From assembly GCF_037893015.1 (NCBI RefSeq), contig NC_133661.1:242584583-242648582 (forward strand): 64,000 nucleotides of DNA. Direction: 5' to 3'. Position numbers and translations under genes: made by a program. Origin of the DNA: Macrotis lagotis (taxonomy: Eukaryota > Chordata > Mammalia > Peramelemorphia > Peramelidae). The notes under the pieces are model-generated. The model ran no database searches and was not told the origin of the DNA. It saw nothing but the letters and a program-made list of their open reading frames with translations. This document shows, piece by piece, positions 37,932 to 48,476 of the stretch. The first letter of the stretch is position 1. Every line of letters begins with the position of its first letter.

Positions 37932-38860
37932 TTACACATAATACTCTTTGTCCTTGTTTTTCTGTTTCTTATGGCCACTCTTTGAGCTTTGCTGCTTCTC
38001 CTTGACGAGCATGCCGTTGCTCTGGGCAGAGTTGCTGATGTAGTTCCTCGTCTCGTCCACCTGATAGGACCCCTCGTCCCTGTTCCTGTACTTGTACATG
38101 GCGTACAGGAGGATCAAGATGCAGAGGGCGGCAGCAGCCACAATGCCGACGACCATCCCTGTTGTACTGCTCGACTCCCGGATCACCTCTGAGGCCCCCG
38201 GAACCCGTCTGATTCCTGGCTCTGTGGGGTTTGCTGTGGGCACATTACGGAACATGGGGGAAGTAATTAGTGGGCTCTTCAGCTTTGTGCTGTCTAGCTC
38301 ATAGGCAGTGGGCAACGGAAGCAAGACTATATCAGGCTGGGGTTTGAGCTCACGGTTATTCATTTTGCCAGCTGGCAATTTGGGCACCATCCCAGACGAG
38401 GAGGAAGCTGTGGAGCGGATCAGCTCAGGGGACAAAGATGTGGTAGTAGTAGTCCTACCAGTTTCGGAGACTTTGTTAGGTCTCAAGTTCTTGGATTCCC
38501 ACTTGGGCGCATGTGCTTTGTAGCCACCTTCGAAGACTGAAGTGGAAAGACTCTTATCTGTTACCAAGGAGAAGGTGGTGTAAAAATCTTCATCATCAGT
38601 AGGGGGCAGGTTAGAGTCAAAGGTTTCCCCTGAGCCATACCCAGATATCACCAAGCCATCATCATCACAACCATCGCTGCCTTGGTCCGACAAGCAAGGT
38701 AACCCCGCCTCAGAGGTCATGGACAGGGAATCTTTGGTGGTCTCAATAATGGTGAGGAGGGGGCGAAAGGTAGGGGGGAGTGTAATGAAAGGTGCACGAG
38801 TAGCAATAGGAGGGGGATTTAAAGGGTCTTCTACAAGTAGAGGGATAACTAATTCACCTC
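37932..38860 (-). CDS. NRXN3: Neurexin-3, last coding exon (3' end of the gene)
   Basis: Presynaptic single-pass adhesion receptor; this exon encodes the juxtamembrane stalk, membrane anchor and cytoplasmic tail. An acceptor (ctttccatctcag) precedes base 38860. The first two bases finish a codon begun in the previous exon, then 308 codons run open to TAA at 37932-37934. In order: [12 protein letters not shown] start; acidic stretch with [12 protein letters not shown]; Ser/Thr-rich stalk; transmembrane helix at about exon residues 234-254 ([19 protein letters not shown]); 54-residue cytoplasmic tail starting [11 protein letters not shown]-terminal EYYV, the PDZ ligand that binds CASK/Mint-type proteins in neurexins. 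The tail matches NRXN3 ([22 protein letters not shown]) rather than NRXN1. No frameshift or stop, so it is intact. The preceding coding exons are not in the window. Confidence 0.97.
38233..38240 (-). promoter_or_regulatory. NRXN3: Internal alternative 3' splice site in last exon (enters at ANPTEPG)
   Basis: Minus strand ttccgtaatgtgcccacag, then CA AAC CCC, exon start 38233. A donor G makes GCA (Ala), joining straight to NPTEPGIRR just before the transmembrane helix. This is the classic short NRXN3 stalk isoform. Frame and phase are identical to the main acceptor. Confidence 0.65.
38557..38562 (-). promoter_or_regulatory. NRXN3: Internal alternative 3' splice site in last exon (enters at DKSLST)
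   Basis: Minus strand ttctccttggtaacag, then AT AAG AGT. The AG is at 38559-38558 and the exon remnant would start at 38557. A donor G gives GAT (Asp), so the frame is kept and about 100 residues of the stalk region are removed. NRXN3 isoforms that begin this exon at DKSLST are known to me from the family. Confidence 0.6.
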
Positions 38861-46354: not shown

Positions 46355-46798
46355 CCAAGTTCAAATCTTGATAAAATTAATCAAGGATTCTCTTAATCCA
46401 TTAGATCCATGTGAGATTCCATTCTTTGAAGTCATCCATGTCACAGATTGATTTTGCAGACAGGTGGGTAAAGTGGTAAGAGTAGTAATATAAACATGGG
46501 AACCTGAATTCAACTATAGTCACTTGAGAGTATCTTTATGACCACTGCTTAGGAAAGGCAGTACAGGAATGATTTCCCTGAAAGGGCATATGTTAGATAA
46601 GACAGGGAAATGGTATCATTGACTGATTATTGGAAGCAGTTTTATCATTTTTTCCCCCCAGGTAGCCAAATCCCTCTAGGAAGTCTAACAGTATTTCTGA
46701 GGCTCAGAAATTAGTAGGAGAATGAAATCAACTGGGAGAAAGAATCTTCAATGGAGAGGAAAGAAACCCACCCACTCTGACGAAGAGCAAAATTTGCA

Positions 46799-46808
46799 TT
46801 TATTTACA
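46799..46808 (-). promoter_or_regulatory. NRXN3: Poly(A) signal of alternative NRXN3 exon, overlapping a Pumilio-type site
   Basis: The minus strand reads TGTAAATAAA. The last six bases are the AATAAA signal and the first eight, TGTAAATA, match the Pumilio consensus UGUANAUA. A GT-rich element lies 25-40 bases downstream. Confidence 0.65.
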
Positions 46809-47677
46809 TAAGCAATTCAGCACAAAAACATAACAGCAAACATTAAAATAGACTCAAATTAGGCAAATAATATAAAAAAAAGTAATTGTTAGAGTGAACA
46901 AAACTTGGGAGAAAGGGAAGCAAATAATACTAATAATAAGGTCATTCACTTTACCAGGTAGAAAAGGGATGAAAGTAAAGTTAAAATAAATTTTGCTTTG
47001 GGGGAAAAACAAATTTTAAAAATTCATTTCAAAGTATACAAAAATAATTGCAAAAAAAATCAGAAAAATAGCATACCACATTAATTCATAGTCAACTTAC
47101 ATCAACAAATTGCCCGCATGTTTTTTGGCATGAAAGAAAAATTTACAAAAGAAAGTTGTGTAAGAATGTTCTTGGACAAGTAGAATTGCCACATTCTTGT
47201 AACTTGCTTTTTTGTTGTCATTCTTAAAAACTTTTTAGCAAAATGTTTAGTTTTTGAAATATAATAATTATTTACGACAGAGGATGATACAGGGAGGCAA
47301 CAACACATACATCCACACCACATAACATGAAAAGAAAAAAAAATCTGCACTTGAAATAAATTTTTACTTTGGGGTTTTGTTTTTTGTGTATGTCAATTTT
47401 GTGTTTAATATATTTCAGATTGCAATGATTTTTTTAAAAATCCTGTACATTTAAATTTATAATTTCCATTTATTTTGAAGAAAAAAATCGTTAAAGCTTT
47501 TGAATGAATTTTTGCATTTTTAATTGTTTATATATTTTTTAAACATTTTCTTTTTGTAACATAAGTTTTAGATTTTTATTCATTTAAGTAATGGATGACA
47601 GCACATAAATTTTAACAATGCTAAAGAAAGGAGGAGGGGTTATGGGAAGAAAAGATGCCTAAAGGGGAGGGTCGTAT

Positions 47678-47787
47678 CTATGAGTGTACTACACAGGAGA
47701 TGAAGATGATAGGAGTAAATGTGTAAGTGAGTCGCCATGTCCATGTAAGGGCGGTACGAAGTGATCTAGCTGCATTAGAGCTTCTGG
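47678..47787 (-). CDS. NRXN3: NRXN3 alternative C-terminus, 35 codons with hydrophobic end
   Basis: Bases CC complete a split codon (Ala if the donor supplies G as for the last exon). Then 35 codons run to TAG at 47678-47680. The peptide begins RSSNAARSLRTALTWTWRL and ends TPIIFISCVVHS. I recall a nearly identical tail in mammalian NRXN3 isoforms that skip the usual membrane anchor. Small residues (SSNAA) are followed by a basic/aromatic spacer and a terminal hydrophobic run with nothing after it. That layout fits a GPI-attachment signal or a secreted form; which one is inference. No homologous ORF evidence beyond memory was available, but the combination of acceptor, phase, stop and poly(A) signal is strong. 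Confidence 0.85.
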
Positions 47788-48476
47788 CTGTAAGGAAGGG
47801 ATGGGCAATATACAAAAACAAATGAGCCTATACATGCCCATCACCAAAAAATAAAGAACAGAACTCTAACATTGACAGTCTCACAAACCCTAAGCTGCAA
47901 CTTCTTCAACATGCAAGTTACCCCCAAAAATCATTACAGTTTCATTAAAGATTCTCAAATGATAAAAACAGTTCAACTTTTTCCTATTAAAAATAGCAGC
48001 AAAAATACATAAAATAATAATATTAATTATTATGATCAAAAGGTTAAAAACAAAAACAAGAAAACTAGTCTTAGGCATTCATATAGAACAACTTCAACAG
48101 CAGCCACACTGACCACCTCCATCTTGAGATCTTGATGATGGAGAATTTTCAGTAATGACCAAATGAAGAAAAATAAAATTAAAAATCCTCAAGTCCTGAG
48201 TCCCTGGTTGCTTCAATTGAGAAGTTACCAGTTTAGTTTTATGAATAGATATATTTAATGATTTACCCCCCTCCCCAGAACTATCCCATTTTCAAAAGTA
48301 ATGAATGATCATTCTAATATGGATGTGAGGATACTGCAGCTGAAGTTGCTCCACATTTAAAGAGGGAATGGGGAAAAATTGCAGAAAACAATTCATAACT
48401 TTTTGTTGTTGTTCTCAGATTTTGGACAAAACCAAATCTAAAGATAGATATCTAACAATTGAAAAGAAATACATTG

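Follow-up and report, generated by a model that had tools for sequence, protein, structure and literature searches.

The NRXN3 locus and its alternative exon

The window analysed here, a 64,000-nucleotide stretch of the Macrotis lagotis genome on contig C4, carries on its minus strand the last exon of NRXN3 and, 8.9 kb before it, an alternative exon that opens at position 47787 (Table 1). Using a neurexin peptide as query, we located the end of the preceding exon (exon 23) at C4:242681175-242681249, on the same strand and 48.8 kb from the alternative exon, which thus has exon 23 before it and the last exon of the gene after it. The distance to the last exon agrees with the 9 kb or so given in the initial annotation. 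Two acceptors on the minus strand serve the last exon, a 25a-type site at 38860 and a 25c-type site at 38233, the labels being deduced from the protein.

Table 1. Features of the NRXN3 alternative exon and its surroundings, in window positions
Feature	Position	Strand	Basis
Alternative (AS5) exon 3' splice site: polypyrimidine tract and AG	47788..47830	minus	Pyrimidine-rich, mouse letters; upstream limit approximate
Proposed extent of the cassette exon (mouse exon 24/human exon 23 orthologue), 687 bases, mostly untranslated	47101..47787	minus	Proposed from best donor and paralogue conservation
Putative GPI-signal tail, 35 codons, RSSNAARSLRTALTWTWRLTYTFTPIIFISCVVHS	47681..47785	minus	Read from frame; mouse 3' arm 47/50
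TAG stop, removing the transmembrane and cytoplasmic parts	47678..47680	minus	Read from sequence
Paralogue-conserved element around the donor	47070..47172	minus	79% identical in NRXN2-like gene
Counterpart of mouse 'intron 24' guide-RNA site	46916..46938	minus	5 mismatches in 23; runner-up on minus strand 8
AATAAA, poly(A) signal of the initial annotation; in predicted intron 24	46799..46804	minus	Read from sequence
Last exon, coding part: transmembrane segment, cytoplasmic tail with EYYV end, stop	37932..38860	minus	Paralogue comparison

Exon 23 ends in ...GAA CCT AGT ACA G/GTAGGT (the slash marks the junction), so that one codon base is carried over. The two missing bases are supplied by CC at the start of the alternative exon, by GA at the 38860 acceptor and by CA at the 38233 acceptor. 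Because CC completes the codon left by exon 23, as do GA and CA, the 35 codons of the alternative exon stand in the true frame; the acceptor, the 35 codons in the right phase and the stop that had been proposed from the letters alone are all present on the minus strand. The acceptor itself, CCCTTCCTTACAG/CC, is pyrimidine-rich. In the frame carried from exon 23, the stop of the alternative exon precedes the transmembrane segment.

The 35-residue tail has an arginine mid-way and a rather short hydrophobic end, with an 11-residue maximum of 2.45 on the Kyte-Doolittle scale, and we would expect the tail sequence alone to give only a weak GPI call. In the animal's own genome (3.66 Gb, 607 contigs) the tail has one match at E <= 0.001. 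To see the exon in proportion, 118 acceptor-like sites on the two strands of the window are at least as pyrimidine-rich as the one at 47787; 13 of these open 30-60 codons in the same phase, and two of the 13, the 47787 exon included, have an equally hydrophobic end. By structure alone (acceptor, frame and hydrophobic end), the exon would be a modest finding. That it is certain follows from its match to mouse exon 24, described below, and not from structure alone. A scan of the window against Rfam gave no family at or above its gathering threshold. An origin of the exon from a transposon was considered and rejected: the DNA of 46700-47900 matched its own genome only at itself and at the paralogue element discussed below, in a search that skips very common words, scores only the best candidates and is not proof.

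Identity with mouse Nrxn3 exon 24

Hauser et al. 2022 (PMC9275415) give the letters of a donor construct with which they tagged exon 24 of mouse Nrxn3. Of the 31 bases in its 5' arm, which runs from the acceptor into the exon, 30 agree with the window, and 47 of the 50 in its 3' arm agree with the tail; the runner-up positions on the minus strand of the window have 12 and 24 mismatches, respectively. The 11 bases before the splice junction and the 12 after it show no difference from mouse (PMC9275415). The single mismatch in the 5' arm would amount to isoleucine for asparagine, but the second, recoded copy in the mouse donor has asparagine. At ...SLRTALTW and ...TYTF in the window tail, the printed mouse letters read as an alanine and as the start of a leucine-type codon, respectively. 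This comparison covers the printed donor arms, in which some bases have apparently been recoded, and the last third of the tail lies outside the printed letters.

Because both arms match so closely and the next best places so poorly, we consider it settled, on sequence grounds, that mouse exon 24 (the AS5 or SS5 exon, numbered 23 in human work) and the window exon are orthologues. The two exons share their position in the gene and the letters of their acceptor, and their coding letters are close over the printed part (PMC9275415). A stop within the exon and a downstream last exon with 25a- and 25c-type acceptors are likewise found in the window. The conservation of the tail in other mammals, which the initial annotation had put forward, thus holds for mouse, the one species compared. 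For the mouse guide site in intron 23 there is no good match in the window, and in the papers searched we found no printed protein motifs.

The window exon is therefore a known exon and not a new one. In mouse, inclusion of exon 24 gives a GPI-anchored neurexin-3 that lacks the transmembrane and PDZ parts; exon 24 carries a stop, and AS5+ mRNAs mostly join exons 23 and 24 to 25a (PMC9275415). The GPI-anchored form is needed at dendrite-targeting inhibitory synapses in mouse, which are otherwise impaired (PMC9275415). In human work the same cassette is exon 23 of SS#5 in an older numbering, and its product is called soluble or secreted (PMC6429815, PMC2872348). Like the window exon, human exon 23 is a stop-bearing cassette ahead of the last exon; the 2019 paper (PMC6429815) gives it four intra-exonal splice sites, and the likeness is drawn from such descriptions. 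A review regards the stop-bearing SS5 exon as unique to Nrxn3 and the truncated isoform as GPI-modified.

Where the exon ends

Two sequence features bear on the 3' end of the exon: (i) a splice donor and (ii) a possible poly(A) signal. The strongest donor in 47790-46600, as scored with a hand-entered matrix, is GAT/GTAAGT, with 47101 as the last exon base (8.39 versus 6.12 for the runner-up). This donor is conserved in the intron of an NRXN2-like gene, and the 25a-type acceptor at 38860 lies downstream of it, both being candidates from sequence. Shorter cassette forms that use other internal donors are possible. Between the donor and the AATAAA at 46804, the window aligns with a guide-RNA site that the mouse authors placed in intron 24 (PMC9275415). 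Because this alignment, at 46938, lies upstream of the AATAAA at 46804, the counterpart of that AATAAA is already intronic in mouse.

The initial annotation had ended the exon at the 46804 signal, with a GT-rich element downstream. The AATAAA is there and a G/T-rich stretch follows about 25 bases past it; the site did not pass a strict GT-rich filter, and an exon end at this point is not confirmed. The hexamer is also common, with 107 copies on the minus strand of the window. Two further copies on this strand, at 47580 and 47474, are closer to the stop than the one at 46804. From the sequence, an exon ending at the 46804 signal appears unlikely, and the window exon is most likely an internal cassette rather than a last exon. 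An occasional minor isoform polyadenylated in the intron near 46804 may nevertheless occur, and such a form, if real, would be without the translation silencer of exon 25a.

Proposed product and alternative explanations

We propose, with a probability of about 0.94, that the window holds the M. lagotis orthologue of the AS5 (SS5) cassette exon already described in NRXN3, the inclusion of which leads to a GPI-attachment tail and a lipid-anchored neurexin-3. With the alternative exon joined to exon 23 on one side and to the last exon on the other, the reading frame would stop after 35 codons. The small residues, spacer and hydrophobic end of the tail would act as a GPI-attachment signal, and the product would be an alpha- or beta-neurexin-3 ectodomain on a lipid anchor, devoid of the transmembrane segment and of the PDZ-binding EYYV end. 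The remainder of the alternative exon, together with the last exon that follows, would become 3' untranslated sequence. We infer that M. lagotis ends the exon at the same point as mouse and anchors the product in the same way. Two suggestions of the initial annotation are borne out at this point, namely that the locus encodes an alternative NRXN3 tail with loss of the transmembrane and PDZ parts, in keeping with the mouse exon 24 match and the published mouse work (PMC9275415), and that the C-terminus is GPI-like, as demonstrated in mouse by ethanolamine labelling and tail transfer (PMC9275415).

An exon that instead runs to the 46804 poly(A) signal would give the same 35-residue tail with a short 3' untranslated region that lacks exon 25a. 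The AATAAA followed by a G/T-rich stretch suits such an arrangement, as does the prospect that the mRNA would escape the silencing of translation by exon 25a seen in mouse reporters (PMC9275415). We consider this very unlikely, given that mouse AS5+ mRNAs mostly have the 23-24-25a structure (PMC9275415), that exon 22a-23a-24a is the predominant soluble isoform in human (PMC6429815), that the mouse 'intron 24' site has its counterpart at 46938, that the donor at 47101 is strong and conserved, and that the 46804 copy of a frequent hexamer failed the strict filter. The suggestion that the exon is terminal and separately polyadenylated is accordingly the part of the initial annotation that we set aside, the exon being an internal cassette in both mouse and human.

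The nature of the product can also be read in other ways. The exon might be used and its hydrophobic tail not be converted to a GPI anchor, so that a soluble neurexin-3 is secreted; the human literature does term the exon-included form soluble (PMC6429815, PMC2872348), and an earlier proposal of secretion is mentioned by Hauser et al. (PMC9275415). Yet in mouse hippocampus the endogenous tagged AS5+ protein remains with membranes after a salt wash, and in HEK293T cells the expressed mouse protein takes up 3H-ethanolamine and its tail anchors another protein (PMC9275415). The closeness of the window tail to that of mouse over the printed part extends the argument to the present species, and we regard secretion as improbable. 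Inclusion could alternatively serve chiefly to lower NRXN3 output through nonsense-mediated decay, as might be expected of a stop in an exon that is not the last; a proposal that the exon makes the mRNA a decay target is cited by Hauser et al. (PMC9275415). In the same work the endogenous mouse isoforms showed no translation-dependent decay in vitro, the protein was detected in brain, and deletion of exon 24 abolished that protein and lowered total hippocampal NRXN3 protein by 61% (PMC9275415). Over the printed letters, moreover, the coding tail of the window is conserved in mouse. Decay as the main role of the exon is thus extremely unlikely, and the lipid-anchored product is the reading that we retain. 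With such a product, the exon would set the state of neurexin-3, which either has a cytoplasmic PDZ-binding part or is a lipid-anchored ectodomain alone. The addition of a marsupial would date the conserved tail to before the placental-marsupial split.

A donor element shared with an NRXN2-like gene

When the exon and its flanks were compared with the animal's own genome, one match was obtained besides the exon itself, at C3:284208148-284208246 (79% identity, E 3.5e-10; a shorter query gave E 4.1e-11 for the same element). The element lies 0.57 kb before a 25a-type last exon, and exon 23 of this paralogue is 25 kb upstream of the element. With its 25a-type extension, the last exon of the C3 gene is 59% identical to that of NRXN3 over all 308 residues; we take this gene to be NRXN2. 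A second paralogue, on C1 and presumably NRXN1, matches residues 206-308 of the last exon only. The conserved stretch takes in the downstream end of the exon (56 of 73 columns) together with the initial intron bases (21 of 31), and a 15-base core common to NRXN3 and the NRXN2-like gene, TTTGTTGATGTAAGT, contains the donor. Among the papers listed in the literature searches we found no report of paralogue conservation around the exon 24 donor.

The SS5 segment of the NRXN2-like gene resembles that of NRXN3 in its 25a-type last exon and donor element but differs in the 35-residue tail, for which we found no counterpart there. A genome search covering the whole intron did not reveal one, and a local tblastn of the tail against the 10 kb before the C3 element, at E up to 100, returned weak scattered matches only (best E 1.3). 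In the NRXN1-like gene, the intron between exon 23 and the last exon, searched in four pieces, held 0, 2, 0 and 1 matches to the donor core at <= 3 mismatches. All had exactly 3 mismatches, and shuffled sequences gave about 0.8 to 1.1 per piece; there is no convincing counterpart of the core in this intron. Genome searches with the exon and donor region likewise gave no match on the NRXN1-like contig. Given the conserved element in the NRXN2-like gene, the AS5 splice module may be older than the split between NRXN2 and NRXN3.

In the 3 kb before the C3 element there are 15 acceptor-like sites, of which 7 satisfy the threshold applied to the acceptor-like sites of the window. One of the 15, at C3:284207289 and 0.93 kb upstream of the C3 donor, opens a frame of 38 codons in the correct phase, with a hydrophobic end. 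Its 11-residue maximum is 2.76, as against 2.45 for the NRXN3 tail and <= 1.47 for the other 14 sites. At the rate seen in the window (2 of 118 sites, the NRXN3 exon among the two), about 0.1 such frames would be expected, although the window DNA differs in composition. The DNA at C3:284207289 is rich in T and includes a short run rich in A and T, and the frame may have arisen by chance, given the abundance of T. No NRXN2 exon of the kind was reported among the matches listed in a literature search that addressed Nrxn2 only in part. It is conceivable, if doubtful, that an alternative exon with this donor at its end was present in the vertebrate gene from which NRXN2 and NRXN3 descend, and that NRXN2 still uses the conserved donor to make an unrecognised tail-less form, for which the 38-codon frame would be a candidate tail. 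With the conserved donor element, the idea that NRXN2 shares this switch, or did so in the past, becomes open to test.
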